From a virus: 37,637 bases of DNA. Positions 1 to 37,637 of this stretch are shown here, in pieces; positions within the stretch are counted from its first letter, which is position 1; each line of letters opens with the position of its first letter. The notes under the pieces were generated by a model. It had not been told where the DNA came from, did not search any database, and saw nothing but the letters and a program-made list of their open reading frames with translations. The translations under genes and the position numbers were made by a program. The DNA is taken from the IMG/VR virus record IMGVR_UViG_3300042691_040044, positions 1-37,637 of that record; one strand, given 5' to 3'.

Positions 1-69
1 GGTCCGGAACGCAGCGACGCCTAAACCGTGAATCGAATTTGGGGGGGCACGACACAACCGAGGGCGTGA
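1..69. repeat. Terminal direct repeat, left copy (circle overlap)
   Basis: These 69 bases are repeated without a mismatch at 37569-37637. Either the contig was assembled from a circular or circularly permuted molecule, or the virion has short direct terminal repeats; the sequence alone does not decide. Unit length after removing one copy is about 37,568 bp. The repeat falls inside non-coding DNA, so no gene is interrupted by the junction. Confidence 0.95.
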
Positions 70-2084: not shown

Positions 2085-2437
2085 GTCAAGATCCAAACAT
2101 AGGGCCTATCTACAGTGTCGCATTGCCGAAAGATCTTCCGATTCGTAACGGTTGGACTCAAGCCGTTCCAAGGAGGGACGAATTGGAGCTAGTAAGAAAC
2201 CGCGTTGGCGACCGTACCGTCGGAGCGTTAGAGGTTGCCCTCGCAACCATTAAAGCTATGTCCGACGATCTATTGAAGATCCATGCCGAAAACGCGAGTG
2301 CAATCGAGGCTCTTTTAACACGAAGTGGATACGTTTTAACTGCGTGCCCCCGGTGCGGCCAATGGGTTATCTCTATTCCTGGCCAAGCGAGGTGGTGTCA
2401 AGGGCAAACATGCGAGCCAATGAAAGGCGGAACATGA
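2081..2437 (+). CDS. Small zinc-binding hypothetical protein
   Basis: A 118-aa protein I do not recognise. It has a GTG start with a strong Shine-Dalgarno (AGGAAGGAGG at 2063-2072) and overlaps the preceding stop by 4 nt. The middle (about 31-85) is probably helical. The C-terminus carries C89-P-R-C92 and C106...C111, which looks like a zinc ribbon or knuckle. It overlaps the next gene by an ATGA junction, so translation is probably coupled. A DNA-binding or replication accessory role is possible but not shown. Confidence 0.75.
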   Translation: MSQDPNIGPIYSVALPKDLPIRNGWTQAVPRRDELELVRNRVGDRTVGALEVALATIKAMSDDLLKIHAENASAIEALLTRSGYVLTACPRCGQWVISIPGQARWCQGQTCEPMKGGT

Positions 2438-3426
2438 CACACGAACAACTTCGATTCGATTGGGGGGAATCCGCCGAGGTAGAGAGGGCAGCCGAAACGG
2501 CGATCAGGGCCCAGCGTGCCAAAGCATTCGAAGCCGCAGCCGTCGCGATCGGTGCACGACCTGGGGAGATCCTCCACCGCGTGGCTGGAACCTTAGCCGT
2601 CTTCGTCGATTCGCCGAGCCAACGCGCCAAGGGTCTGACCGGGTTGCGATGGTCCGGCACCTGGGCCGAGCTGGCCGAGCGGTGTGAATGCAATGCCGAG
2701 AGCGTTGGCCGAGCCGTGCGTCGCCTGAGAGCCGCCGGGTTGGTTGAAACGGAACTGTTGGTCGACGATCGCAACCTAGTTGTGGGCGTCGTCGTCGAGC
2801 TCCAAATGCGAGCCGTCCAAGTCGTCGAAGCCATGGCCACCCCGTTGGCTACTGGCCCCGGCGCTGGCCCCGGCGCTGGCCCCGGCGCTGGCCCCGGCGC
2901 TGGCCCCGGCGCTGGCCCCGGCGCGAAACGGCCATACTATAGCTCCGTCTTTTCCGTTAATCCGAATAATCCGCCACCCCGAGAGGCGGCGGCGGAAGAT
3001 TTGAAATTGGAAACCCAAAAGACGCCGGACCAGTGGGAAGAAGTTCGCGAAGCCCTCGAGGGTGCCGGGGTGACCCGCAGCCATGCCGCGATTCTGGCCG
3101 CCAAGGATGCCCGATACAGCCCCGCCGACGTCTTGGAGATCCTCGGGCAGTTCCAAACCCACCGTGCGCTGTTCGACGGGCCGGGGGCGTTGGTGGATCG
3201 AATACGGGCCGGGGCTTGGTGCGTCGAGTTGCCCAACCCGCAAACCGAGACACGCCGATCCGTCGCCCTCGAGGCGGCCCAGCGGCAACGACAGTTCGAA
3301 TCAGTACGCGGCCAAATCGTTTTGGACGCACGACGGCGCGGCGAAACAATCTCAGACAGCCAGGCCGACGCCATGGCAGCCGCCGCAGTGGATCGATTTT
3401 CCCAAAAGCAGAAGGTGCAAACATGA
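2434..3426 (+). CDS. Winged-helix replication-type protein with GPGA-repeat linker
   Basis: A 330-aa protein. Residues about 65-120 form a helix-turn-helix/winged-helix region (TWAELAERCECNAESVGRAV, followed by a basic recognition helix and a beta wing). A low-complexity linker of six GPGA units (about 141-164) separates it from a helical C-terminal region starting near residue 195. Phage replication initiators and DnaD/DnaT-like loaders often have this N-terminal winged helix, flexible linker and C-terminal domain. Its position in the early operon before an HNH gene supports a replication role, but no DnaA, primase or helicase motif is visible. The ATG at 2434 with AAGGCGG upstream is preferred over an earlier ATG at 2344 that would overlap the previous gene. 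Confidence 0.65.
   Translation: MTHEQLRFDWGESAEVERAAETAIRAQRAKAFEAAAVAIGARPGEILHRVAGTLAVFVDSPSQRAKGLTGLRWSGTWAELAERCECNAESVGRAVRRLRAAGLVETELLVDDRNLVVGVVVELQMRAVQVVEAMATPLATGPGAGPGAGPGAGPGAGPGAGPGAKRPYYSSVFSVNPNNPPPREAAAEDLKLETQKTPDQWEEVREALEGAGVTRSHAAILAAKDARYSPADVLEILGQFQTHRALFDGPGALVDRIRAGAWCVELPNPQTETRRSVALEAAQRQRQFESVRGQIVLDARRRGETISDSQADAMAAAAVDRFSQKQKVQT
2854..2925 (+). repeat. 12-bp minisatellite, six tandem copies
   Basis: Six head-to-tail copies of GGCCCCGGCGCT encode (GPGA)6 in the linker of the winged-helix protein. Five copies are identical and the last differs in its final base. Near identity at the DNA level points to recent expansion or slippage; the copy number keeps the frame. 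Confidence 0.95.
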
Positions 3427-4086: not shown

Positions 4087-4470
4087 ATGAGGTTTGTACC
4101 ATTAAGGTTGTTTAGGTTTTTGCATGTCTCCCCAGTAGACATTGAAAAACATGTCAAGACGCATTTTGAAGAACACCTACTGGAGTTGACTAGCCAAAAC
4201 AACGAATACTATCAAGAAGTAATTCAGTTGAAGAACCAGATTATCCAAATTTCGGATGAGCTAAACAAAACGAAACAGCTATTGGATGCAAGCAAAAACA
4301 AAGCCGAATATCTTGAAGGCAAGATTTTACATTTGACAGAAAGGGGTTTTGAGAAGGACAGCGAAAGGAAGGACTTGTCCGAGAAGCTGGAAGAACACAG
4401 ATACACTTATCGCCTAGTTGTCGAAGCGTTGACCAAATTAGGGGCTAAAGACCCTAACATCAACCTTTAA
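4087..4470 (+). CDS. Coiled-coil hypothetical protein, AT-rich
   Basis: A 127-aa protein, mostly one long coiled coil (about 20-115) rich in Lys, Glu, Asn and Leu, after a short basic-hydrophobic N-terminus (MRFVPLRLFRFLHV). The gene is clearly more AT-rich than its neighbours and uses many AAA, GAA and ATT codons, suggesting separate acquisition. The 87-bp gap upstream is also AT-rich and shows no obvious gene. I do not recognise a family. Confidence 0.65.
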   Translation: MRFVPLRLFRFLHVSPVDIEKHVKTHFEEHLLELTSQNNEYYQEVIQLKNQIIQISDELNKTKQLLDASKNKAEYLEGKILHLTERGFEKDSERKDLSEKLEEHRYTYRLVVEALTKLGAKDPNINL

Positions 4471-4480
4471 TACCCAACCC

Positions 4481-4777
4481 GTGAAAGCCCACCAAAAACT
4501 GATGCAACATAAAGCGAAAATGAAACCGGCGTTGAAAAGGCTGGACACGGAAACGATTCAAGCGATTGCACGCAGCAGCCTAACTGCCCCACAATTGGCC
4601 GAATTCTACGGCGTCAGCGTGTCGACCGTGAAGCGGTGCCGAGAGCGATACCCCAAACGTCGGGCCGAATACGCCAAGCGACTCAAAGACCCTCGAAAAT
4701 GTAAAGGGTGTGGATACAAGATCGACACCAACAACTGTTTGATTTGTGCGGCACGAAGGATTCAAAGCAATGCCTAA
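4481..4777 (+). CDS. HTH protein with C-terminal zinc ribbon
   Basis: A 98-aa protein with a GTG start. Residues about 42-65 (SLTAPQLAEFYGVSVSTVKR) form a helix-turn-helix; the C-terminus has C-x2-C (CKGCG) and C-x2-C (CLICA), a likely zinc ribbon. The same architecture, HTH plus Cys cluster, recurs at 23272-23550. It probably binds DNA and may control phage transcription. No clear Shine-Dalgarno is seen. It overlaps the next gene by 8 nt. Confidence 0.7.
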   Translation: MKAHQKLMQHKAKMKPALKRLDTETIQAIARSSLTAPQLAEFYGVSVSTVKRCRERYPKRRAEYAKRLKDPRKCKGCGYKIDTNNCLICAARRIQSNA

Positions 4778-5036
4778 AGTTACCGAACAAATGTACCGTG
4801 ATGAAGTACAAAAGTACGCGATGAATTTTAGCCAATGGATAACTGCAACATCGAACTATCCAGTCAGGCCAGTCGACGACGAACCCAACCCAAAGCCCGA
4901 AACATACATTCTTTGTTTTCCAAACGGGAACATGGCAGCGATTCGCCGGGAAGCGTTTGTTGAAGCCGTCGGGCAAGTAATCGCAAGGCAAGATGAAATC
5001 GCGGCGAACTATAGAAAGTTTTTTGAGAACCTATAG
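4770..5036 (+). CDS. Hypothetical small early protein
   Basis: An 88-aa protein of unknown function. The start at 4770 is chosen because GAAGGA (4755-4760) lies 9 nt upstream. It is a mixed alpha/beta sequence with a central ILCFPNGNMAAIRREAF block and no metal or catalytic motif. It lies between the HTH-zinc gene and the ASCH-like gene in a tightly packed run. Confidence 0.6.
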   Translation: MPKVTEQMYRDEVQKYAMNFSQWITATSNYPVRPVDDEPNPKPETYILCFPNGNMAAIRREAFVEAVGQVIARQDEIAANYRKFFENL

Positions 5037-6377: not shown

Positions 6378-7877
6378 ATGGCCGACCAATTACCGTGGGG
6401 CGTTTGGGACGTATCGGCAGCCGCCCCCGAGCGAAAAACCAAACGACACTGGGAAGGTGCTCAAACCGATCGGTTGAACCAAGCCCATTGGCAAAATGCC
6501 AGCGACAACACCGCCATCGAGTTTGCTGTCGACCTGCCCGAGCTCCAACGCCGAGTGCGGCACGAATCGATCAACAATTCGATTCTCGATTCAGCGATTG
6601 AAACGCAAGACACCAACGTGGTCAGCGCCCGAGGCCCAACGCTCGAGGTTTTGACCGCCGACCATGCGTTCAACGAAGAGGTTGAAGCACTGGTAAAAGA
6701 ATGGTCCAAGGAGTGCGAGTTTCAGGACAACTTGTCGTTGGTCGATTTGCTCGATGGATGGGTCGCCCAGTTTATGATTTACGGGGAAATCCTTTCCCGA
6801 GAAATCATTGGCAACAGTGTCGCAAGCTACAAAATCCTAGACATTGGCCCCGAAGCCTTGGACACCACCAAGGTTTCTAAGAACGTACACAGTGGCGTCG
6901 AAACCGACGACGATGGCCGCGTGATCAATTTCCATCTGTATGACCCGGCCAACCCAATGTCGAAGCAGACATTGCCCGCCGAGTTGGTTCTCCACTGCTA
7001 CCGTCGCCGGTTCGCGTTCCAAAGGCGGGGTTTCTCGGGGTTTGCGAGCGTCCTCCAACCCGCCGCCGATTTGCGGGACTACGACGACCAGGTGCAAGAC
7101 GCGGCCCGAGCCGCAGCCGACCACGCGGTGTTTTTCTACACGGACCACCCCGACGCGGAATTTATGGAGCCAAGGGAAAAGAACTTGCCAGTTCGGCGAC
7201 GCGTCCAGAAGTACATTTCCCCTGGGTGGAAGCCTGGCAGCGTGGCAGCGAACCAACCAGCCGCAACCTACAAAGAGTTCCGCAAGGAAAAACAAACCGA
7301 CATCGGCAACGTCTTTGAAATGCCTTGGATGATTCTGCGAAAAGACGCATCGAATCACAACATGAGTTCGGCCCGATTCGATGGTAGCCGATACGCCAAA
7401 GCCGTCGAACGAATTCAAGCCAAGATCGAGCGACGTTTTTTGACTCCGATGATCCGCCGATTGATCCGGATCGCCCAGTACACGGGAGTGTTGGGACCAA
7501 CCCCCAGAGTCACGAAGTTTGAAAAATTGGCCTTCGAATTTCCCAACGTCAATTTGCCAATGGCGTGGACCTGGCCCAAGCCTCCCCCGGTCGACTCTCT
7601 TAAGGATGCGATGGCCGAACGCATCAAAATCGAGAACGGCACCCTGGCACTTTCCGAGGCAATCGCCGCCGACGGCCGCCGACCTGAGGAAACGATTCGA
7701 ATTCGCTCGAAAGACAACGAAGCGTTGCAGGCAGCCGGGTTGCCTGTTGTTTGGGGTACTGTGCCGAGCAAGTTCACACCCGAGCAAATCGCCGCGTTAA
7801 ATGCACTCGCAGAACCGATCGACGCAAACCCAGCAACTCCAGCACTAGACACCGAAACCGAATTGGAGGCATCCTAA
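6378..7877 (+). CDS. Portal protein, lambda type
   Basis: A 499-aa protein with features of the lambda-family portal (gpB-like). It has the early block TDRLNQAHW followed by alternation of helical and beta segments, AHWQNASDNTAIE, then an Arg-rich YRRRFAFQRRGFSGFASVL, the long stem helix LRDYDDQVQDAARAAADHA, SSARFDGSRYAKAVER, and a C-terminal QAAGLPVVWGT region. Portals form the dodecameric ring at one vertex through which DNA is packed and to which the neck attaches. The ATG at 6378 follows AGGGGA by 4-5 nt. Length is normal for the family. Confidence 0.88.
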   Translation: MADQLPWGVWDVSAAAPERKTKRHWEGAQTDRLNQAHWQNASDNTAIEFAVDLPELQRRVRHESINNSILDSAIETQDTNVVSARGPTLEVLTADHAFNEEVEALVKEWSKECEFQDNLSLVDLLDGWVAQFMIYGEILSREIIGNSVASYKILDIGPEALDTTKVSKNVHSGVETDDDGRVINFHLYDPANPMSKQTLPAELVLHCYRRRFAFQRRGFSGFASVLQPAADLRDYDDQVQDAARAAADHAVFFYTDHPDAEFMEPREKNLPVRRRVQKYISPGWKPGSVAANQPAATYKEFRKEKQTDIGNVFEMPWMILRKDASNHNMSSARFDGSRYAKAVERIQAKIERRFLTPMIRRLIRIAQYTGVLGPTPRVTKFEKLAFEFPNVNLPMAWTWPKPPPVDSLKDAMAERIKIENGTLALSEAIAADGRRPEETIRIRSKDNEALQAAGLPVVWGTVPSKFTPEQIAALNALAEPIDANPATPALDTETELEAS

Positions 7878-7878
7878 A

Positions 7879-10269
7879 GTGGCAATCAAGACCGCACGCC
7901 GACGCAACAGTCGATCGACCGTCAGAGTGGCCCGCCGATCGACGGCACCCAAGGCCCCTGGGAGTCTGAACACCGAGGCCAGAACCGTTCGGGCCGTGAT
8001 CGCCACCGATGCCCCCGTGCCGATCTACGACGACCTGGGGAATGGTGAGTATGGATGGATCGATGAAGTTCTACTGCCCTCGGGGATGGTCGAACCGCCC
8101 AAGATGCCATTGCGATTGGACCACGACGTTTACCAATCGCGGGGTGTGATTGGCCGCGTGTTTGATTTCGAGGTTGGGGCCAGCGAAATTTCGGCGACGT
8201 TGAAATTTAGTGCGGCATCGGACGTCGAAATGATTTGGCAACGCGTTGCCGAGGGGCACCTTGATTCTGTGTCGATCGGTGCAACGTATCGCATGCGAGA
8301 CACGACGACTTTGCAGCCCGGCCAAACAGGTCGGTTTGGTGGTCAGAAATACACCGCCACCGACAAACCAATGCGAATCGTCCAAAAGTGGAACGGAATC
8401 GAGACCAGTGTGGTGGCCGAGGGTGCCGACCCGCGAGCGGTGATTCGCTCAAAGATTAGGACAGCGCGGAACGGTCAGCAAGAATCTGCAAAACCCGGCA
8501 AAGGTGCGGATCTACCACGGAGCGACAAGATGACCAAGAAACTGAAACCACGCGGGCAAGTTGCCCGTACCAAAGGCCCAGCCTCTACTGGTGGGAACAC
8601 GCAACGCCGAGCCGCACGTCAAGCCGTGCGAGCCGTAGTTGCGACGAACAACGTCGACGGATCGGACGATGACGACGACGACATCGACGACACCGACGCC
8701 GAGCGATCGCCACGCCGACGTCGAACGACGCGAACCACGCAACCCCGCGAAGCAGTGCGGGATGCGTTGGCCGCAGCCGATCGCCGAGCCACAGCCGCAG
8801 CCGGTACCACGGCCACGACGGACCAGATCAACGCCGCCCGACTCGAGGAACGAAGCCGAGTTGGGCGGATTCGTGAGCTTGGCCAAGGGCATCCGGAAGA
8901 GTTTGTAACCCGAGCGATCAACGAAGGTTTGAGCGTCGAGCAATTTAGCTTGGCCGCCCTCGAGCGATTGCGCGGCCAATCCGCCGGGCATCGGACGAGC
9001 CAAAGCGGCGACGGGGTAAACCGAGCTCCAGCCGTCCACAGCGTTCGTGGTGCGAGCGTTCAAGGCCTCCAGGCCGCCGTGCTCATGCGAGCCGGATTCA
9101 GCCTCCAAAACCCGAGGCTCGGAACGGAATCCGCCCGGGTTCTTCTCGAACGAGCCGGTTGCGGTTGGCTTGCTGATTTCAATTCGGAAATCGGCAGCGA
9201 TGGCAACAGCGAGCTCGAAAGATACATCGACGTCGGACGTCGGTTTTCTTCCGACAGCGCAGCCCGAACGTGCGAACGCATCCTCGATTTGAAGGGCAAG
9301 CGACACCACGACGACGTCGAAGAAATCGTGACGCGAGCTTTCTCGAGTCCCCATTTGCCCCGCGTCTTCGGTGCATTGGTTTCCGTTGGGTTGATCCAGG
9401 GTTACACCGAGTTCGCCGACTCGACCATTGGTTGGACCACCGAAGCCGATTGGGCCGACTTCCGCTTGAACCAACCCATTGGTCTCGATGCGACCCAAGG
9501 GTTGACGCGTCACACCCGTGGGACCACGGCCAAAGACGTAGACTTTGCAGATTTCGGCGAAGCATACGCAGTGTCTCGATACACGGGACGTTTCGCCCTG
9601 GATGAAATGGACATCATCGACGATACGGTTGGGGCCAACCAGGTCATGCCACGTCAGATGGGTGACATGGCCGCCCGACTTCGTCCCGATTTGGTTGTGG
9701 CCGTACTACAGGCCAACGCAAATTTGAGCGACGGTGTACCGTTGTTCCATGCAAGCCGCGGAAACCTTGTCACTGGCAACGCGTTGTCCCTCGACAACCT
9801 TTCCAACGCGGAATCGGCCATGGCGGCCCAGACTGTTAAAAACAAATCGGGAGTTCCACGACCGTTTAACATGACCGCTGGGTTTTTGATCGTCCCCCGC
9901 AAGTTGCGACCCTTGGGCAAGCAGATCGTGAATTCGACGAACGTGGTTCATGGGAACGCAACGCAAACGGGCAACGTCAATCCTCATGCAGGCGAATACC
10001 AACTGCGATCCGATGCACGTTACGACGTCGGTGTGATCGATCCGCGAACCAACACCAAGTTGAGCGGAAGCAATTCCACCTGGTACATCGCCGAGCAATC
10101 GGGGACTCAAGCCGTCCAAGTAGGTTTCCGCCGTGGTACTGGGCGTATGCCGAGCTTCCGCGTCCGACCTCTTACCGGTGCTGGGGAGTTCGGTCTCGGG
10201 TGGGACATCGCCCACGACGTCGGTGTTGGCGTTCTCAAGGCAGCCGCCTTGGTTTCTTGCCGAGCCTAA
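7879..10269 (+). CDS. Prohead protease-major capsid protein fusion
   Basis: A 796-aa fusion. Residues about 35-195 are an HK97-type (S78) prohead protease: RLDHD with the likely catalytic His82, GHLDSVSIG with the catalytic Ser, and WNGIETSVVAEGADP. Residues about 200-385 are a charged, low-complexity linker with an Asp tract (DDDDDDIDD) and Arg/Ala-rich helices, probably the scaffold. From about 390 to the end is a capsid protein of the Mu gpT/HK97 fold type, with ELERYIDVGRRFSSDS, GDMAARLRPDLVVAVLQ and HASRGNLVTGN. Self-cleavage would release the mature coat protein. GTG start, GGAGG at 7865-7869. This fused order is known in other phages. Confidence 0.9.
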   Translation: MAIKTARRRNSRSTVRVARRSTAPKAPGSLNTEARTVRAVIATDAPVPIYDDLGNGEYGWIDEVLLPSGMVEPPKMPLRLDHDVYQSRGVIGRVFDFEVGASEISATLKFSAASDVEMIWQRVAEGHLDSVSIGATYRMRDTTTLQPGQTGRFGGQKYTATDKPMRIVQKWNGIETSVVAEGADPRAVIRSKIRTARNGQQESAKPGKGADLPRSDKMTKKLKPRGQVARTKGPASTGGNTQRRAARQAVRAVVATNNVDGSDDDDDDIDDTDAERSPRRRRTTRTTQPREAVRDALAAADRRATAAAGTTATTDQINAARLEERSRVGRIRELGQGHPEEFVTRAINEGLSVEQFSLAALERLRGQSAGHRTSQSGDGVNRAPAVHSVRGASVQGLQAAVLMRAGFSLQNPRLGTESARVLLERAGCGWLADFNSEIGSDGNSELERYIDVGRRFSSDSAARTCERILDLKGKRHHDDVEEIVTRAFSSPHLPRVFGALVSVGLIQGYTEFADSTIGWTTEADWADFRLNQPIGLDATQGLTRHTRGTTAKDVDFADFGEAYAVSRYTGRFALDEMDIIDDTVGANQVMPRQMGDMAARLRPDLVVAVLQANANLSDGVPLFHASRGNLVTGNALSLDNLSNAESAMAAQTVKNKSGVPRPFNMTAGFLIVPRKLRPLGKQIVNSTNVVHGNATQTGNVNPHAGEYQLRSDARYDVGVIDPRTNTKLSGSNSTWYIAEQSGTQAVQVGFRRGTGRMPSFRVRPLTGAGEFGLGWDIAHDVGVGVLKAAALVSCRA

Positions 10270-17310: not shown

Positions 17311-18060
17311 ATGTTCATTTATTTCACGCCGCGCGTGGACGGTACGCCGTTCAGCGTGCCGGCGCATCTAAACTACGCAACCGACCGTGGTGCCAGTTTC
17401 CAAACTCGGGAAGTGTTAGCCGGACCCGAAGGAAGTGGCCCCGGTTGGTTGTGTCGTTTCTCAAACGTTGCCGGGGTGTATGACAATCGGGATTTGAAGC
17501 TCGACCCCAAAGCACAATCCTGGGCCAGAGTCTGGAATCCAGACGGGCCGCAAGGTTGTTGGGTGGGTCGATGGAACGACGACAAGTTAAACCCGTCGAT
17601 TCTCGAGCGCCCCAAGTTGCTTGACTCGCACCGCGTCACACTGGCCGACGGATCCGTCTGGAATGCCGCGATCGCTCGAGGGTTCGACGTCGAGTCCGAG
17701 CGCTACTACACTCCCCTGCCCCACACTTTGGCGTTCGATGGGTCGACGGGCAAATGGCGACCCGCGAGCGTTGCTCGGGAGTATCGAAAGTTTCTTGATT
17801 TAGCCCATGCCTATGCCGATGCCCACTCCGCAGCCGTGGCCGAGGAACGGCCGTCATTCGAATTTCCCGAAATCGACCACCTGGCCATCGCCGCGTTGAC
17901 TGCGAACTATCGCGTCAGTCACGCCGAGCTCGGTCTCTTCGAGGACGTCTACACGGTAACAGCCCGCGATGCGTTAGTGCATTGCGCGTTGGATTTCCCA
18001 ACGATCAAAAAGTGGGTTGAAAAAAAAACAGAACTGGCCGCCGCTGGGGCCGGTACCTAG
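17311..18060 (+). CDS. Tail assembly chaperone-like protein, zero-frame product
   Basis: A 249-aa protein after the tail tube gene, where siphophages encode the G/GT tail chaperones. The N-terminal 150 residues are beta-rich and unlike known chaperones; the last 80 are helical (HLAIAALTANYRVSHAELGL, TARDALVHCALDF) and end in a Lys-rich stretch. The 3' end has a run of nine A residues and a downstream GC stem, a likely -1 frameshift site that would extend the protein by 39 residues. The zero frame stops at TAG 18058-18060, after which it stays open for another 37 codons. Function is inferred from position and the recoding signal. Confidence 0.65.
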   Translation: MFIYFTPRVDGTPFSVPAHLNYATDRGASFQTREVLAGPEGSGPGWLCRFSNVAGVYDNRDLKLDPKAQSWARVWNPDGPQGCWVGRWNDDKLNPSILERPKLLDSHRVTLADGSVWNAAIARGFDVESERYYTPLPHTLAFDGSTGKWRPASVAREYRKFLDLAHAYADAHSAAVAEERPSFEFPEIDHLAIAALTANYRVSHAELGLFEDVYTVTARDALVHCALDFPTIKKWVEKKTELAAAGAGT

Positions 18061-18071: not shown

Positions 18072-18146
18072 GCGATGGATCGAGGCCAACACCCCAGGGT
18101 GGACGGTAGTTACGCCGACTTCCACGCCTGGCAGATGGGTTGGTGA
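18027..18146 (+). CDS. -1 frame extension of the tail chaperone (T-like)
   Basis: If ribosomes slip back one base at 18021-18027, translation continues in the -1 frame from AAC 18027 to TGA 18144-18146, adding 39 residues. The added tail is basic and aromatic at first, then contains a DGSYADFHAWQMGW ending. It has no start of its own and no SD, as expected for a fusion extension. Lambda-type phages make a minor GT product by slippage at the same place in the gene order, and GT chaperones load the tape measure protein during tail assembly. An alternative is amber read-through in frame zero (18061-18174). Confidence 0.5.
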   Translation, partial: NRTGRRWGRYLVWRAAMDRGQHPRVDGSYADFHAWQMGW

Positions 18147-18183
18147 GTTTAGGACAGTACCTTTAACCCCATAAAATGAAGCC

Positions 18184-19113
18184 ATGAACAGCCCTCCCGT
18201 CTATCTTCCACCGGATTTGGTTTCCGACGTTGAAACGTTCGCTTTCGCTGGCGATCCGTGGCATTTACAAAAAGCCATTTTTGAACCAATTTGGAAGCGA
18301 GTCACCGGAAAGGCCCGCATAGCGGTGCTAGATACTGGATACAGTCCGCATGATTTGCTTCCCGAGCCTGTTTATTCGAAGTCGTTCATTCGAGGCGAAA
18401 GCGTAAGAGACGGCAACGGCCACGGAAACCATGTCGCTGGCACGGCACTAGGAAGGGATGGGATTGGGGTCGCTCCTGGTGCTTCACTGTTAGTTTTCAA
18501 GGTGCTGTCCAACGATGGTCGGGGATCGTCTGATGGTATTTCGCAAGCAGTACGCGAAGCCGCAGACCAAGGAGCAGACGTTGCCAATTTGTCGCTTGGA
18601 TCAAGCAGTCCTTACGAGCCGACTCGAGAGGCACTGGAGTATGCTTGGTCAAAAGGTGTGATCGTTGTTTGCGCTGCTGGCAACTCGGGTTTTGATGGTC
18701 GAAGAAACACGATCGGGTATCCTGCGCGGTACCACAAAGAGGCTCTTGCCGTTGGTGCGTACCGGAAAGATGGTCAAAGATCTTCGTTTTCGTCTGGTGG
18801 CCGTGAGCTCGATATTTGCTGCCCAGGGCAGGACATTGTTTCGTGTTCCAACAACAGCACCAGCGGGGTTCGCAGCATGTCTGGAACGAGCATGGCGACT
18901 CCGTTCATGGCAGGCTTGCTCGCTTTAATCATTGATTTGATGCGGAGAGAAGGATACGCAGATTTTACGGGAATCGAAGCTGTCAGAGCGTTTCTCGCGA
19001 AGTACACCCAAGACAAAGGCGATCCTGGACACGATCCGTTTTGGGGTATGGGAATCCCACGGACCCAAGACATCATTGCCGCGCTCGTCAACGATCAACT
19101 CAGTTTTGTTTGA
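18184..19113 (+). CDS. Subtilisin-like serine protease (peptidase S8)
   Basis: A 309-aa protein with an intact subtilase triad: Asp50 in AVLDTGYSPH, His80 in GNGHGNHVAGT, Ser236 in SGTSMATPFMAG. The oxyanion Asn167 lies in AAGNSG. The catalytic domain fills nearly the entire chain; there is no signal peptide and only a short N-terminal extension rather than a full I9 propeptide. Phage subtilases are uncommon; a role in virion processing or host envelope lysis is possible. The next genes encode a small acidic protein, an exported protein and a holin-like protein, favouring a lysis link, which is inference. The 123-bp gap upstream is the frameshift extension and a short leader. Confidence 0.92.
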   Translation: MNSPPVYLPPDLVSDVETFAFAGDPWHLQKAIFEPIWKRVTGKARIAVLDTGYSPHDLLPEPVYSKSFIRGESVRDGNGHGNHVAGTALGRDGIGVAPGASLLVFKVLSNDGRGSSDGISQAVREAADQGADVANLSLGSSSPYEPTREALEYAWSKGVIVVCAAGNSGFDGRRNTIGYPARYHKEALAVGAYRKDGQRSSFSSGGRELDICCPGQDIVSCSNNSTSGVRSMSGTSMATPFMAGLLALIIDLMRREGYADFTGIEAVRAFLAKYTQDKGDPGHDPFWGMGIPRTQDIIAALVNDQLSFV

Positions 19114-19167
19114 GCTTGCGGAGTGTCCGTGAGCCGTTTTTTAGGTGTTTCTTAAAGAGGTTTGATT

Positions 19168-19371
19168 ATGGCTAACATTTTGGCGGGTTCAAGTGTGGAC
19201 GAACTTTGTGACGCTTTGGAAGCAAAGCTGAGTGAAAATGAGGTTTGCACGTCTGAAAGTGCTCCTGAGGTTGGAACGAAGGGATGGGAGGAACTCATTC
19301 CCCTGTTTCTTCAGTTTCTAAAGATCATCCGCGAGAACCGCAAGAAACCTGCTCCCGCTCCTGCTCCCTGA
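19168..19371 (+). CDS. Small acidic hypothetical protein
   Basis: A 67-aa protein starting at ATG 19168 after AAAGAGG. The N-terminal half is acidic (SSVDELCDALEAKLSENEV) and the C-terminal half has a helix (GWEELIPLFLQFLKIIREN) followed by a KKPAPAPAP tail. No family is recognised. It lies between the subtilase and an exported protein and might be a partner or inhibitor of the protease; no evidence beyond position. Confidence 0.6.
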   Translation: MANILAGSSVDELCDALEAKLSENEVCTSESAPEVGTKGWEELIPLFLQFLKIIRENRKKPAPAPAP

Positions 19372-19442
19372 GTAGGTTGAGAGATACGTAGAGCGATTTC
19401 GTTCACGTTCATTGCACCACATCACAAAACCAAGGTTAAACC

Positions 19443-20180
19443 ATGCGAACACTGATTGCCATTTTGTTGCTTACGATGCCAGCATTCTCGCAGGAGTTGA
19501 AGGCATCGATAAAAGGACCGGCAACGGCGCTCGCTGGCACCTTGGTTTTTCTGTCCCATGAAGAAGCCGTTGGGGATAACAAGGTCTGGATCATCCCAGA
19601 GGAATTGAAATCCGCTTCGGCATCGTGTGGTTCGAACATTTTCTTTTCAATCCCTACTCCAGGCAAATACCAGTTCGGTTTGATCGTAGCGAACAAGCAA
19701 GCCGAGATTGCGTACAGTTGGCATACGATCAACGTAACGGGCACTGTGATTGCCCCAGTGCCGACGCCGACGCCGACCCCTTCGCCAACACCCGGCCCGA
19801 ATCCATCACCGAATCCGATTCCACCGAGCCCAGGGAATCCGCCTCCCTCCCTAGAATCGATTCGCCTAACCTCCCGCGCTGCAGTCGACACACTTCAAGA
19901 CGCGGCCACAACTTCGCTGTTGGCAAGTTCGCTGATCAATCTTTTGCCGAAACTTCCCGCGTATCTTCCGGACGCCAAAGGGCTAGTGACAAGCACCATC
20001 GAAACGTGTTTCGGAATGCGTGAACCAACGAGTCGAAAAAAAGACTGGTTGAACATTTGGCGAATCCCGATCGACCAAGAGATTGGCAAGGCCAACCCGC
20101 AAACCGTTGAAGAATACAAGGAATGCCTTCGAGCGGTGATTCGAGGGCTTTGCGTGAACGGTAATTGTCCCAACCCATAA
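19443..20180 (+). CDS. Exported protein with Pro-rich linker
   Basis: A 245-aa protein with a signal peptide (MRTLIAILLLTMPAFSQ, likely cleavage after AFS). Residues about 20-100 form an immunoglobulin/PKD-like beta domain (GTLVFLSHEEAV, GKYQFGLIVANKQAE). Residues about 103-140 are a Pro/Thr/Ser-rich linker, and 140-245 are helical with cysteines (ETCFGM, YKECLRAV, LCVNGNC) that may form disulphides. There is no lipobox or transmembrane anchor, so it is not a typical spanin. An envelope-acting role next to the holin-like gene is plausible. Confidence 0.65.
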   Translation: MRTLIAILLLTMPAFSQELKASIKGPATALAGTLVFLSHEEAVGDNKVWIIPEELKSASASCGSNIFFSIPTPGKYQFGLIVANKQAEIAYSWHTINVTGTVIAPVPTPTPTPSPTPGPNPSPNPIPPSPGNPPPSLESIRLTSRAAVDTLQDAATTSLLASSLINLLPKLPAYLPDAKGLVTSTIETCFGMREPTSRKKDWLNIWRIPIDQEIGKANPQTVEEYKECLRAVIRGLCVNGNCPNP

Positions 20181-20199
20181 CTTCGCAGGACGCTGAGAA

Positions 20200-20550
20200 A
20201 TGAAAAACGTTTTCGTGTTGGCCCAAGACATTGCCCCGACCCATTTCGCCTACTGGTTCAACCAGGGTTTCGCCGTGCTTGTAGTCATAGCTTTGGGTTG
20301 GGCATTCTACGGATGGATTCGCTGGGCCGGTGTCAATTTGGGTCTTCCGTTGTTCAAAGCTCACATCAACTATTTAGACGCGTCCACCGAGGGCATAAAA
20401 CAAGCGACTGACGGCATCAAAACAGTGTTAGCCAATCAGGCAGACCACCACCGTGAACTAGGGCAAATAGCCAATACTGTTGGAACTCTCAAAACAACCG
20501 TTGAAGAAATTTCTTCGGACGTCGACATCCTCAAAAAGCGACAAGCCTAA
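20200..20550 (+). CDS. Holin-like membrane protein with coiled coil
   Basis: A 116-aa protein. One membrane segment lies at about 21-41 (GFAVLVVIALGWAFYGWIRW), and the remaining 70 residues form a coiled coil (STEGIKQATDGIKTVLANQA, ISSDVDILKKRQ). Single-span phage proteins with cytoplasmic coiled coils are often holins or holin-associated proteins, but some are virion membrane proteins. It lies between the exported protein and the terminase genes. A dedicated endolysin is not recognised anywhere in the genome. Confidence 0.55.
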   Translation: MKNVFVLAQDIAPTHFAYWFNQGFAVLVVIALGWAFYGWIRWAGVNLGLPLFKAHINYLDASTEGIKQATDGIKTVLANQADHHRELGQIANTVGTLKTTVEEISSDVDILKKRQA

Positions 20551-20553
20551 AGT

Positions 20554-21144
20554 GTGGATGCCAAAACGGAACTGGCCGGGTTGGCCGCTAGAAAAAAAGA
20601 AATCGAGGGCGGTAAGCTAACCGCCCGAGAATCCGCAGCACTTACCAAGTGGCAACGGGAATCGATTGCCGAGGTTCGCACCCAGTTGTTGCGAGAAATC
20701 CCCAAGGGCGTCTATTGCGAAATGGCAGGCCGCCAACAAAAGGTGGTCGACGAATTCGGATCGAGGTACGACATCCCCGTCGATGTTCCGACGATCAACT
20801 TATTCGCCGTGATCAAAGATTTACACACCCGAGTCTCCGAGCTTGCCGCAGCCGCCCGGCCCAACCTCGATGCCGACGAAGAGGAATTGGTAAAGGAAAA
20901 ACTGAGACAGGAGATTGGCAAGCTTCAACGCCAATCCGCCGCATTGCAAATCGACCTCGATCGCAACATGGACAAGCTTCTCAACAAAGCCGACGTCCAA
21001 GCTGGCCTCGATTGGTTGGCGTCCCGATTGCGAGCCATGGGCACGCAGCTCCACCGCAGCGTCGGCCAAGCCGGTGTTGATACCGTCAATGAATTCTTGG
21101 ACGCTCTGGCCGCCGAGGTCGAGGGCGGAGCGTTGCGGTTTTAA
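20554..21144 (+). CDS. Terminase small subunit-like protein
   Basis: A 196-aa protein directly upstream of the large terminase gene. GTG start 3 nt after the preceding stop, no SD. It opens with LTARESAALTKWQRES and has EMAGRQQKVVDEFGSRYDIP and INLFAVIKDLHTRVSELA, segments of the type found in lambda-like small subunits, then a long coiled coil to about 140. Small subunits recognise the packaging site and hand DNA to the large subunit. Position is the strongest argument. Confidence 0.75.
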   Translation: MDAKTELAGLAARKKEIEGGKLTARESAALTKWQRESIAEVRTQLLREIPKGVYCEMAGRQQKVVDEFGSRYDIPVDVPTINLFAVIKDLHTRVSELAAAARPNLDADEEELVKEKLRQEIGKLQRQSAALQIDLDRNMDKLLNKADVQAGLDWLASRLRAMGTQLHRSVGQAGVDTVNEFLDALAAEVEGGALRF

Positions 21145-21146
21145 CC

Positions 21147-23177
21147 TTGGCAACCGAAATCCAAAGCGACGACGGATTGGTCCTACTCAGGCCAGCGGAT
21201 TTTGGCCCTATGATCGCCGCCGCGATCCGTGCGGGGCGTGGAGCTCCACCGCGCACGTTTACCCAGTGGCTTGAGACCGAAGTGTACTTGCCCGCCGACG
21301 GTGGCCCTTACTCGGGCCGTCGTTTTCGATTCGAGTATCAGCCGATCGCACGATTGTGGGCCCGCGAAATCGATTCGGGGAACTGGAACGAGTTCGTCTA
21401 CACCGGCCCAAGCCAATCCGGCAAATCGTTTCTGGGCTACGTATGCCCGTTTCTGTACCACATGACCGAGCTGGGCGAATCGATTGGGTTTGGCGTCCCG
21501 ATGGAAGAAATGGCGGGGGACAAATGGCAAGCCGACATCAAGCCCGTGCTTGAAAGTTCGCATCGTTTGAAACGCATGTTGCCGCGTTCGGGTCCAGGAT
21601 CCGCAGGGGGCACAATTCGCGATCGAGTGGTATTCTCTAACGGGGCGGTGGCAAAGATCCTCACCGCAGGTGGACGCGATGCAGCCAAAGCCGGTTACAC
21701 CCTTCGGACCATTTTGGTAACCGAAGCCGCAGCGTTCAGCCGCATCTCGAGCAAATCTCCCGAAGCCGACCCGCTCGAGCAATTGCGAGCCCGTCAACGA
21801 TCGATTCAATGGGCAGACCGCGCGACTTACATCGAGGGTACCAACACAGTCCCCGAGGAACTCCCCGAGACATTGAGGCCTGTGTCGACCGACAGCCGGA
21901 TCCTAAGCCCATGCCCTCATTGCGGGGCATGGATTTGGCCGCAGCGTGACAGCCTGGTCGGATGGGAGTCCGCACGAACCGAAGTCGAGGCCAGCGAATT
22001 GGCAACATGGGTGTGCCCGGAGTGCGGGGAAGCAATCACGCCCGACGAACGCCGAGAAGCGTTGGCCGAGTCGGAATTGGTCCACTCTGGCCAAACAATC
22101 GATCGACGCGGAAACGTCTCTGGGGATCCGCCTCGGACCCGCCGTTTGTTTTTCAGATACGGTGCTTGGCACAACGCATTTCTTAACGCCGCCGACATCG
22201 CAGTCGATCTATGGGCCGCAGCTCAACACGAACCAGGCACGCGAACGCGAGACCTGGCCGAACGCAAGTTGTGCCAATTCGTTTTTGGTTTGCCGTACAA
22301 GGCCCCAGCAATCGAAGCCGGGGACGTCCTCGAGGAAGTCGACGTCGACGCACGCCGCGACGTGTTGCCCCGTGGTGTGGCCCATGCAGACACGATGCAC
22401 GTCGTCGCCGGTGTGGACGTTGGCGAGCGAGTTTGCCACTGGGTGTTTCTCGGAGTTCGACCCAATGCACAATTGCACGTGGCCGACTATGGCACGGTTG
22501 ACGTGGATAGGGCAGCCGGAACAAAAGCGGGACTGATCGCAGCGTTGGTCGAGTTGTTCGGGCACTTGGAATTTGGGATCGCCCGAGACATCGCCGTCGA
22601 ACCAGGTACGGCCGTCGCCGGTGGGCGTCACAGTTGCCGATCGATTTACGTGGACTCGGGACACATGCCCGACGTCGTGTTCGATGCAGCCAAGACCTTC
22701 AATCTGAAATCAGGGAGGCCCGATTTCGTGCTTCCGGTGCTGGGCCGGGGCGAAACCGCCATGGTGAAACGTCGGTACAGTGCCCCCACAAAAACGGGGA
22801 ACATGATCCGAAAGATCGACCCCGAGGGCCGTTGGCACTTGTCCCGAGTCCGCCGGGCCAGGATCGATCAATTGACCCTCGACGCCGACGCCTACAAACG
22901 TCTCGCAGACGGCGGGTTTCGCGTCAGTGCGGGGAATCCTGGGGCAATCACCTTGTTTTCGGGCCCAGGATCCGTCCACCGGACATTCATCCGGCATCAG
23001 ATCAACGAACAGTTTGTCACTGAGGAATTGCCCGACCAACCAACAAAAGCACGGTGGGTTTGCACAGGGGCGAACCATTACAAAGATGCTTTGGCCTACG
23101 CGATTTGTGCCGCAACCAGGTTGGGTTGGGCACCTGGCAGCATTCTGCCCAAGTCGGCGAAAAAATGGGAGGATTGA
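21147..23177 (+). CDS. Terminase large subunit, GpA type
   Basis: A 676-aa protein of the lambda GpA family. The ATPase has a Walker A-like GPSQSGKS (87-94) in VYTGPSQSGKSFLGYV. A zinc knuckle lies at about 250-295 (CPHCGAWIWP, CPECGEAI). The nuclease half contains VVAGVDVGE, the characteristic acidic motif, then the VDSGHMPDVVFDA region. It cuts concatemers and drives DNA into the prohead. It starts at TTG 21147 with no SD; ATG 21210 is an alternative that would remove 21 residues. Lambda-type phages usually place it upstream of the portal; here it is over 13 kb downstream. Confidence 0.93.
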   Translation: MATEIQSDDGLVLLRPADFGPMIAAAIRAGRGAPPRTFTQWLETEVYLPADGGPYSGRRFRFEYQPIARLWAREIDSGNWNEFVYTGPSQSGKSFLGYVCPFLYHMTELGESIGFGVPMEEMAGDKWQADIKPVLESSHRLKRMLPRSGPGSAGGTIRDRVVFSNGAVAKILTAGGRDAAKAGYTLRTILVTEAAAFSRISSKSPEADPLEQLRARQRSIQWADRATYIEGTNTVPEELPETLRPVSTDSRILSPCPHCGAWIWPQRDSLVGWESARTEVEASELATWVCPECGEAITPDERREALAESELVHSGQTIDRRGNVSGDPPRTRRLFFRYGAWHNAFLNAADIAVDLWAAAQHEPGTRTRDLAERKLCQFVFGLPYKAPAIEAGDVLEEVDVDARRDVLPRGVAHADTMHVVAGVDVGERVCHWVFLGVRPNAQLHVADYGTVDVDRAAGTKAGLIAALVELFGHLEFGIARDIAVEPGTAVAGGRHSCRSIYVDSGHMPDVVFDAAKTFNLKSGRPDFVLPVLGRGETAMVKRRYSAPTKTGNMIRKIDPEGRWHLSRVRRARIDQLTLDADAYKRLADGGFRVSAGNPGAITLFSGPGSVHRTFIRHQINEQFVTEELPDQPTKARWVCTGANHYKDALAYAICAATRLGWAPGSILPKSAKKWED

Positions 23178-33222: not shown

Positions 33223-33428
33223 ACCCGTGCGCCGCCCCGTACACAGGGGCGAAATCGCCGAGAAAAGTTCGGTTTGTTGGACCCCTTGCAGGGGTACTTC
33301 CCATCTTTTTTCAACGCGGCCATTTCCACATGGACCGCGTTTTTTATTGGTTTTGTGCCACCACAGACCACCGTCCATACATGTTGTCCCCGTGCGCAGC
33401 CCCGTGCGCTAGGTTGCGCCCCGTGCGC
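33223..33428. other. Probable attP region
   Basis: The region at the 3' end of the integrase gene has CCCGTGCGC-type direct repeats in two clusters: 33224-33232 with a variant CCCCGTACAC at 33235-33244, and CCCCGTGCGC at 33388-33397, 33400-33409 and 33419-33428. Between them are ACCCC/GGGGT at 33281-33295 (5-nt spacer), and overlapping the left cluster GCCCC/GGGGC at 33234-33250 (7-nt spacer), either of which could be a core crossover site. Clusters of arm-type sites flanking a core are the layout of phage attP. The host attB is unknown. Confidence 0.5.
33314..33346 (+). terminator. Rightward terminator-like hairpin inside the att region
   Basis: ACGCGGCCAT (33314-33323) pairs with ATGG-A-CCGCGT (33330-33340, one bulged A), followed by TTTTTTT. 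It would stop rightward transcription only. No rightward gene lies nearby, so it may insulate the integrase operon from antisense transcription. Confidence 0.6.
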
Positions 33429-34548
33429 GGGTTGGTTCGTTTTTCGGTGGTTCTTGGACGGTCCCGCAAGCAGCCGCCCAGTGGTCGGGAGTCACGCGTA
33501 AATAGTGGTCCTTGGCCACGCGTTCGGAGTGTCCGAGCCAACTGTCGCAGACGTGCCCGGGAAACCGTTCCTCGAGATCCGTGCGACAAGCAGCCCGCAG
33601 ATTGTGCCAGAGTTTTGGCCATGGTTGCACGCCCGCAGTGCGACAGGCCGTCAGTGCCCAGGTTCGCCACTGAGTCGCCGCCGACGCACGGCACTGGTTG
33701 AACACCCACGGCGTAGCCGGTGCCGAGTCGAACAAGGCGGCCATGGCCGTGCGTGCCGTATCGAACAGGGGAACCACTCGCAAGCCGGTTTTTGTACCGC
33801 TCGGGACAGTAAGCCGGTTTTCGTGCCAGTCAATGTTTGCCCAGGTCAGGGCCAAAGGTTCGTGTGGGACTCGCAGACCGCACCACCGGGCCAGTGCGAA
33901 CAACGCACGCCCCTCGAGGGTAGCGAAGCCATCCAGGACACGCCGAGCCGTTTCCGCGTCGACATAGATTTGCCGCGTGTTGTCGACCCCACGCCCGAGC
34001 TTGATTCCAGAAAACGGATTGGCGGTGATCAACTTGGCGTCGATCGCCGCCGCGAAAACCTGGGAACACCGCCCGATGATCTTGGCCGCGTGAGACGTCG
34101 ACACCGCGAGCCCCAAATCTCGAGAGAATGTCTTCGCATCCAAGGCCGTGATTTCATTCAACGTTTGAGTCGGCCAACGTTGCGACACATGGAGCAATGC
34201 GGTTTGCCAGCCCTTGCGAGTCGAAACCGAAAAATCCGATCGGGATCCAACGTACTGAGCCCACCAATCGAGCAACGCAGGCGTCGTGTTTGACTTCCAC
34301 GAACTGAGCAAACCAGCCCCACGCAGAGCCTCCAAAAACGATGGAGAGCACGCGGCCAACCACGCGGCCAATTCCGGCGTTGGCGGTTCGCCGATTCGGG
34401 CCAGGCGTCCGAGCTGCTCGGCGCGCAGCCGCACCGACTGGGCCGCGCTCGAGGGGATCTTGCCCAGATAGATCTTCCTCGCAGGGCCAACGGGCATGGC
34501 GATTTCTAAATACCAACCGCCCCGGGCATGCTTCCAAACGCTAGCCAT
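33409..34548 (-). CDS. int: Tyrosine integrase
   Basis: A 379-aa tyrosine recombinase. Residues about 1-55 form an arm-binding-type N-terminal region, 90-185 the core-binding domain and 195-355 the catalytic domain. Likely catalytic residues are R226 (CGLRVPHEPLAL), K253 (GTKTG), H315 and R318 (WHNLR), H340 (WLGH) and Y349 (KDHYLRV). It catalyses integration at attP/attB and, with the excisionase, excision. It overlaps the excisionase-like gene by 8 nt, and its 3' end lies inside the cluster of direct repeats of the probable attP. Full length for the family. Confidence 0.93.
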   Translation of the reverse strand: MASVWKHARGGWYLEIAMPVGPARKIYLGKIPSSAAQSVRLRAEQLGRLARIGEPPTPELAAWLAACSPSFLEALRGAGLLSSWKSNTTPALLDWWAQYVGSRSDFSVSTRKGWQTALLHVSQRWPTQTLNEITALDAKTFSRDLGLAVSTSHAAKIIGRCSQVFAAAIDAKLITANPFSGIKLGRGVDNTRQIYVDAETARRVLDGFATLEGRALFALARWCGLRVPHEPLALTWANIDWHENRLTVPSGTKTGLRVVPLFDTARTAMAALFDSAPATPWVFNQCRASAATQWRTWALTACRTAGVQPWPKLWHNLRAACRTDLEERFPGHVCDSWLGHSERVAKDHYLRVTPDHWAAACGTVQEPPKNEPTRARGAT

Positions 34549-37552: not shown

Positions 37553-37596
37553 GTTGCAAGCGGTTTCAGGTCCGGAACGCAGCGACGCCTAAACCG
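37531..37596. other. Hairpin cluster at the circle junction
   Basis: CGGTTT-c-AGG (37561-37570) pairs with CCT-AAACCG (37588-37596), a 9-bp bulged stem whose apical sequence begins TCCGGAA. An alternative stem pairs GAAACC (37541-37546) with GGTTTC (37562-37567), so the two are mutually exclusive. TTGCAAGCG occurs three times nearby (37533, 37554, 302). Confidence 0.45.
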
Positions 37597-37637
37597 TGAA
37601 TCGAATTTGGGGGGGCACGACACAACCGAGGGCGTGA
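37569..37637. repeat. Terminal direct repeat, right copy
   Basis: Identical to bases 1-69; closes the circle. See the left copy. Confidence 0.95.

Follow-up and report, generated by a model that had tools for sequence, protein, structure and literature searches.

An exchangeable protease cassette as a candidate lysis module in a complete temperate phage genome with no recognisable endolysin

The genes between positions 18184 and 20550 of the virus record IMGVR_UViG_3300042691_040044 form an exchangeable, presumably late module centred on a subtilisin-like protease, and our leaning, a modest one, is that this module is most likely a host-lysis cassette in which a protease takes the place of the peptidoglycan hydrolase. 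The genes are intact and conserved, the protease keeps the same partners, it is swapped for another protease at defined breakpoints, the two protease types are mutually exclusive, and no canonical endolysin is detectable. The wider proposal, that widespread environmental phages of at least three lineages lyse their hosts by a protease alone (a subtilisin or an interchangeable papain-like enzyme) that targets envelope protein, with no peptidoglycan hydrolase involved, is put forward tentatively.

The window, i.e. the whole stretch of 37,637 nucleotides that was analysed, carries an exact terminal direct repeat of 69 bp and is therefore complete; with one copy of the repeat left out its length is 37,568 bp, and it represents the genome of a temperate phage. 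Searches against PHROGs and Pfam also revealed a lambda-type portal, a gpA-type terminase and collagen/LamG fibre proteins. The features referred to below are as follows.

1..69, no strand: terminal direct repeat, identical to 37569-37637
7879..10269, + strand: major capsid protein fused to a head maturation protease (PHROG 4523, 5.3e-62; PHROG 133, 9.8e-37)
17311..18060, + strand: g25, conserved left flank of the slot, 249 aa, no assigned function
18150..20245, + strand: exchanged segment, from blastn of the window against L013, L014 and L016
18184..19113, + strand: subtilase (S8), 309 aa, proposed endolysin equivalent
19114..19134, + strand: terminator-like hairpin with a T-rich tail, directly 3' of the subtilase stop, a consensus match only
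19168..19371, + strand: small acidic protein (g27), 67 aa from ATG, between the subtilase and the signal-peptide protein
19443..20180, + strand: exported partner (SP protein) with a signal peptide, a PKD/Ig-like domain, a Pro-rich linker and an all-helical C-terminal domain
20200..20550, + strand: membrane protein (TM protein), 116 aa, holin candidate, ending 3 bp before TerS
20554..21144, + strand: putative small terminase subunit (TerS), right flank, named from its position, 76-99% identical in sister phages
21147..23177, + strand: large terminase subunit (TerL; PHROG 15, 3e-32), bait for the sister phages
33409-34548: integrase, a temperate-phage gene

Elsewhere in the window, 1545-2084 encodes a fatty acid hydroxylase/sterol desaturase-like membrane protein (PF04116, 1.2e-10), possibly acting in membrane-lipid modification, of which L036 has a 60% homologue shortly upstream of its own subtilase, and 2362-3426 encodes a protein that resembles replication initiators and carries an array of GPGA repeats (GPGAGPGAGPGA...) at about residues 166-188.

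The sequence-only reading had described a complete subtilisin-like protease, and this was fully borne out. The protein matched PF00082 with 160.9 bits (E 5.6e-47; cut-off 21.8), and the Asp-His-Ser triad (D50, H80, S236) and the oxyanion Asn (N167) were unchanged in 13/13 subtilase homologues. Its dN/dS of 0.05-0.09, taken from comparisons with unsaturated synonymous sites, indicates that the gene is under selection. It is a real, intact gene of peptidase family S8, and its product is predicted to be proteolytically active. With regard to known enzymes, the best PDB matches were KerA/subtilisin Carlsberg (E 7e-44); the structure model (pLDDT 68.6), whose best BFVD match was a phage subtilisin, added nothing to what the sequence had given. 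The catalytic domain and triad are those of the intracellular and extracellular subtilisins (MEROPS S8A), but unlike these the phage protein has no recognised signal peptide or I9 pro-domain, and its N-terminal ~45 residues are particular to this phage-specific family. Filing it as a phage endolysin was rejected because it has no peptidoglycan-hydrolase domain. The hairpin behind its stop codon is weakly supported, since ten terminator-like sites were found versus 6.3 ± 2.3 in shuffled sequences, and a promoter scan of the block's + strand gave no sigma-70-like site.

The partners named in the same reading were a small acidic protein, a signal-peptide protein with a Pro-rich linker and a holin-like membrane protein. 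The first of these is indeed acidic (net charge -4, with an alternative TTG start upstream at 19162) and consists of a hydrophobic/amphipathic segment, WEELIPLFLQFLKIIRENRKK, followed by a Pro-rich tail; 11 homologues, drawn from three lineages, could be aligned with it, and homologues elsewhere are longer (125-205 aa). A 149-aa protein of L233 is similar in architecture only, its homology to g27 being unconfirmed. The second protein was likewise confirmed, and its PKD/Ig-like domain (about residues 18-100) can be added in front of the disordered linker (101-135) and the helical domain (136-238). The signal peptide is retained in an alignment of 14 divergent homologues, dN/dS is 0.04-0.12, and the AlphaFold2 model (pLDDT 78.5) gave the PKD domain of ColG collagenase as top Foldseek match (E 1.3e-5). 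This protein stands beside the subtilase in every cassette that could be read to its end. Its sequence has no lipobox, and neither of the arrangements that mark spanins, a lipoprotein/i-spanin pair or a unimolecular protein with lipobox and TM segment, applies to it. For the third protein, the holin-like description holds in part: as expected of a holin it is small and has a TM segment, with one predicted helix at about residues 22-40 and a C-terminal coiled coil, while searches of PHROGs, Pfam and NCBIfam gave no match to a holin family, so that "holin-like" is used here as an architectural label. A protein of similar build adjoins the protease in most cassettes.

The missing signal peptide of the subtilase, together with the hydrophobic or amphipathic segments in the small proteins next to it, would also suit a protease that works in the cytoplasm, for example by cleavage-activating a pore-forming partner (as in gasdermin systems) or by degrading host regulators. 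We regard this as very improbable, as the most conserved companion is exported and hence resides in another compartment, and as neither a cleavage site nor a gasdermin-like fold was found.

To examine the surroundings of the block, sister phages were collected by TerL similarity, with the protease never used as bait. The gene order g23-g24-g25-slot-TM-TerS-TerL is kept, with g25 showing 64-98% identity across phages of both protease types. In the window and in L012 the slot holds the subtilase, g27 and the SP protein. L013, L014, L016, L017, L018 and L022, and partly L015, have a protease of the papain family (C1) there instead, together with a membrane protein of several helices, a second one that is TM/thioredoxin-like(?), a protein of ~100 aa and an exported protein with a coiled coil. 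The papain-type sisters, whose TerL proteins are 81-88% identical, cease to be homologous to the window at the nucleotide level at about 18146-18157; homology restarts at about 20241-20251, just inside the TM gene, so that the breakpoints enclose the protease block. A protease occupies the slot of every TerL relative with a readable slot. As judged by profile and active site, the papain-type protein belongs to peptidase family C1: the PF00112 profile matched at 1.7e-5 in L022 (above cut-off), 4e-10 in L021 and 0.0019 in L013 (below cut-off), ficin was matched in the PDB (2e-7), and the Gln-Cys-His-Asn tetrad (Q91, C97, H213, N234) was unchanged in 6/6 C1 slot proteins. L021, a complete record (114-bp repeat), has its C1-like protease in the slot, and so has L019, there assigned from motifs only. 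The C1-type L019 also encodes a protein with a lipobox (LVGC) at 6858-7667. In L092, a C1-type relative, a signal-peptide trypsin/HtrA-like protease (4175-4969; Do family, 4e-7) lies shortly before the papain-like protease, giving two proteases in one cassette.

Moreover, the subtilase, g27 and the SP protein travel as a unit in two further lineages. Lineage b, collected by its capsid protein alone and unrelated to the TerL lineage of the window, contains both subtilase cassettes (for example L184, L193, L206 and L223) and C1 cassettes (L188, L190, L191, L196, L197, L202 and L216) behind the same preceding gene; the S8-or-C1 alternation thus recurs in this capsid-defined lineage. In three further records of lineage b (L209, L217 and L219) the slot has only the holin-like gene or neither, and the C1 protease lies elsewhere in the genome, adjoining a signal-peptide, Pro-linker protein. 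In G029-G031 the C1 gene found outside the slot lies among nuclease genes and away from the holin-like gene. G033 was negative with both Pfam models; its C1 homologue, again outside the slot, has as neighbours a protease of metzincin-like type and a signal-peptide protein with a Pro-linker. Homology between the SP protein and these signal-peptide/Pro-linker proteins of G029-G031 and G033 was unconfirmed (profile comparison E 0.02 over 15 columns), and only the architecture is similar. In lineage c the subtilase cassette comes after the genes for primase and DNA polymerase A, and small beta-rich proteins are interspersed in it.

Among about 30 larger records, S8 and C1 occurred together in none and exactly one protease in 30; among records of more than 20 kb tested for both, only the fragments G034 and G035 (25 and 21 kb) had neither. 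It should be stressed that these counts are descriptive, as the records are akin to one another and a protease served as bait for some of them; expressing the exclusivity as a probability was dropped because kinship and bait choice inflate the figure.

The relatives of this phage group are rich in proteases. Metzincin-like metalloproteases (HEFGHNCNLSH, HEIGHVLGGRTH) lie near C1 or fibre genes at L234 14174-15061 and L060 10400-10975. A recurring kind of protein beside C1 proteases, encoded at L013 3629-4114, L231 3786-4493 and L234 13504-14220, is exported or anchored in the membrane and combines a Pro-rich linker with a C-terminal domain that is thioredoxin-like(?), and the C1 proteins of G029-G031 have a C-terminal Cys-x-x-Cys stretch (FCSWCK).

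These genomic contexts bear on the possibility that the protease processes virion proteins, which the sequence-only reading had offered as its alternative, or that the virion carries it and uses it to get through surface protein when a cell is infected. The cassette adjoins structural genes in two lineages, the beta-rich proteins interleaved with it in lineage c look structure-like, and some relatives have further proteases near fibre genes, as in L060. We nevertheless hold a virion role to be unlikely. With a capsid-fused head protease of its own, the genome has no need of the subtilase for maturation, and the subtilase was not classed as a prohead or virion maturation protease; the signal peptide of its partner is hard to reconcile with cytoplasmic assembly; the neighbours of the cassette differ completely from lineage to lineage; and the protease showed no recognisable virion-binding domain.

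The claim that the whole genome is without a muramidase, amidase or glucosaminidase stood up in the now demonstrably complete sequence. No peptidoglycan hydrolase was found when all predicted proteins of the window were compared with PHROGs and Pfam. Amidase_2 was absent from 37 whole records (the window and 36 related ones), and SLT, M23, Phage_lysozyme, CHAP, NLPC_P60 and M15_4 were each absent from 29 (the window and 28 related ones), control genomes being positive in each of the seven family-specific searches. Likewise, when six related records were sampled by about 130 representative proteins with a length of 130 aa or more, the families listed, which in each of two listings were all but five weaker ones (worse than about 1e-4), included no peptidoglycan hydrolase, and a profile search of the PDB with the flanking g25, considered as a cryptic hydrolase, came back empty. 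On this sequence evidence the genome has no recognisable endolysin, although a highly divergent one is conceivable among its many proteins that match no family.

That last point also feeds the main rival to the lysis reading, ahead of a virion role, namely an exchangeable accessory module for superinfection exclusion, envelope remodelling or host takeover that needs some protease, with the true endolysin going unrecognised. It would account for a genome context that varies by lineage, including positions beside replication or nuclease genes, and for slot genes that diverge more than their flanks: between the window and L012 the subtilase is 73% and the TM protein 65% identical, versus 98-99% for g25 and TerL. 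An accessory gene should, however, sometimes be missing, whereas one protease is present in all readable slots of TerL relatives and in all but two fragmentary records, and all seven hydrolase families are absent from every record tested. We therefore see the accessory module as a possible but less favoured explanation.

Under the favoured lysis reading, the cassette would be expressed late and the subtilase, having no signal peptide, would accumulate in the cytoplasm. The one-helix membrane protein would then open the inner membrane and release the subtilase, which would join the PKD/Pro-linker protein that had been exported earlier and cleave structural proteins of the envelope, perhaps a surface layer, lipoproteins or restrainers of host cell-wall hydrolases, with lysis of the host as the presumed outcome. 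In the sister phages the papain-family protease would play the same role with its own membrane and exported partners. Subtilases cleave bonds between L-amino acids, and the peptidoglycan sacculus should therefore stay intact, which counts against lysis. Since the stem peptides should not be cut, either envelope protein of the host would have to be load-bearing or proteolysis would have to unleash the host's wall hydrolases. Also to be counted against lysis are the lack of a holin-family match for the TM protein, the C1 gene among nuclease genes in G029-G031, the position of the lineage c cassette behind primase and DNA polymerase, and the peptidoglycan in typical Gram-negative and planctomycete walls (PMC4432640). 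The earlier suggestion that the protease replaces an endolysin thus retains the exchangeable cassette, the lack of a canonical endolysin and the second, unrelated protease family in the sister slot in its favour, but its rationale of a planctomycete envelope dependent on protein is weak, as Planctomycetes possess lysozyme-sensitive peptidoglycan sacculi (PMC4432640).

Searches for a host gave little and lend no support to a planctomycete. Profile scans of GTDB contigs with TerL and the SP protein found no match, nor did plasmid searches with the SP protein, C1, the TM/Trx-like protein and the integrase; the fatty-acid-hydroxylase-like protein had a single plasmid match, at 31%, on an Acidisoma plasmid. 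The phage-plasmid pPLIM01 of Planctopirus limnophila (NC_014149.1, L065) was rejected as a relative, with only four weak protein matches and no protease evident among the proteins read; having terminase, portal, capsid and tail genes, it has the appearance of a whole phage, and its annotation includes no endolysin.

In phage lambda the lysis genes sit directly before the terminase genes. The present slot resembles such a lambda-type cassette (holin, endolysin, spanins) in its location directly upstream of the terminase genes, its small TM protein, an enzyme without signal peptide, an exported companion and modular exchange among relatives. It differs in having a subtilase or papain-like protease as its enzyme and in lacking a peptidoglycan hydrolase, and no spanin pair was recognised with the subtilase type. 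Phage-encoded S8 proteases are known from large Bacillus/Moorella phages, for example Moorella phage MTATph1 and vB_BcoS-136 (35-36% identical to the window subtilase), but in the two genomes read their genes are surrounded by ones for DNA metabolism, and nothing annotated as holin or lysis gene adjoins them; subtilases of named phages reached at most about 38% identity, and about 36% over most of their length, among the matches listed. Papain-superfamily cysteine peptidases do occur in lysis genes or modules, as the N5 domain of mycobacteriophage LysA endolysins (PMC3314691) and as a cysteine protease that accompanies holin/antiholin in prophages of Leptospira (PMC8705779), but unlike these the sister-phage enzymes are of the C1 family and a subtilase can stand in their place. 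The open-access literature searched contained no description of a subtilase as part of a phage lysis module, and what is new here is the subtilase/papain swap at defined breakpoints, recurring in an unrelated capsid-defined lineage.

Lysis by dsDNA phages is taken to require an enzyme that cuts peptidoglycan. Two unrelated, mutually exclusive proteases in phages of several lineages with no recognisable wall hydrolase would point to a different principle of lysis, or to hosts whose envelope integrity depends on protein. The lysis question becomes directly testable by expression of the small cassette, and the combination of an S8 or C1 gene with a signal-peptide/PKD/Pro-linker protein and a small TM protein may serve as a rule for finding lysis modules in phages whose hosts are uncultured.
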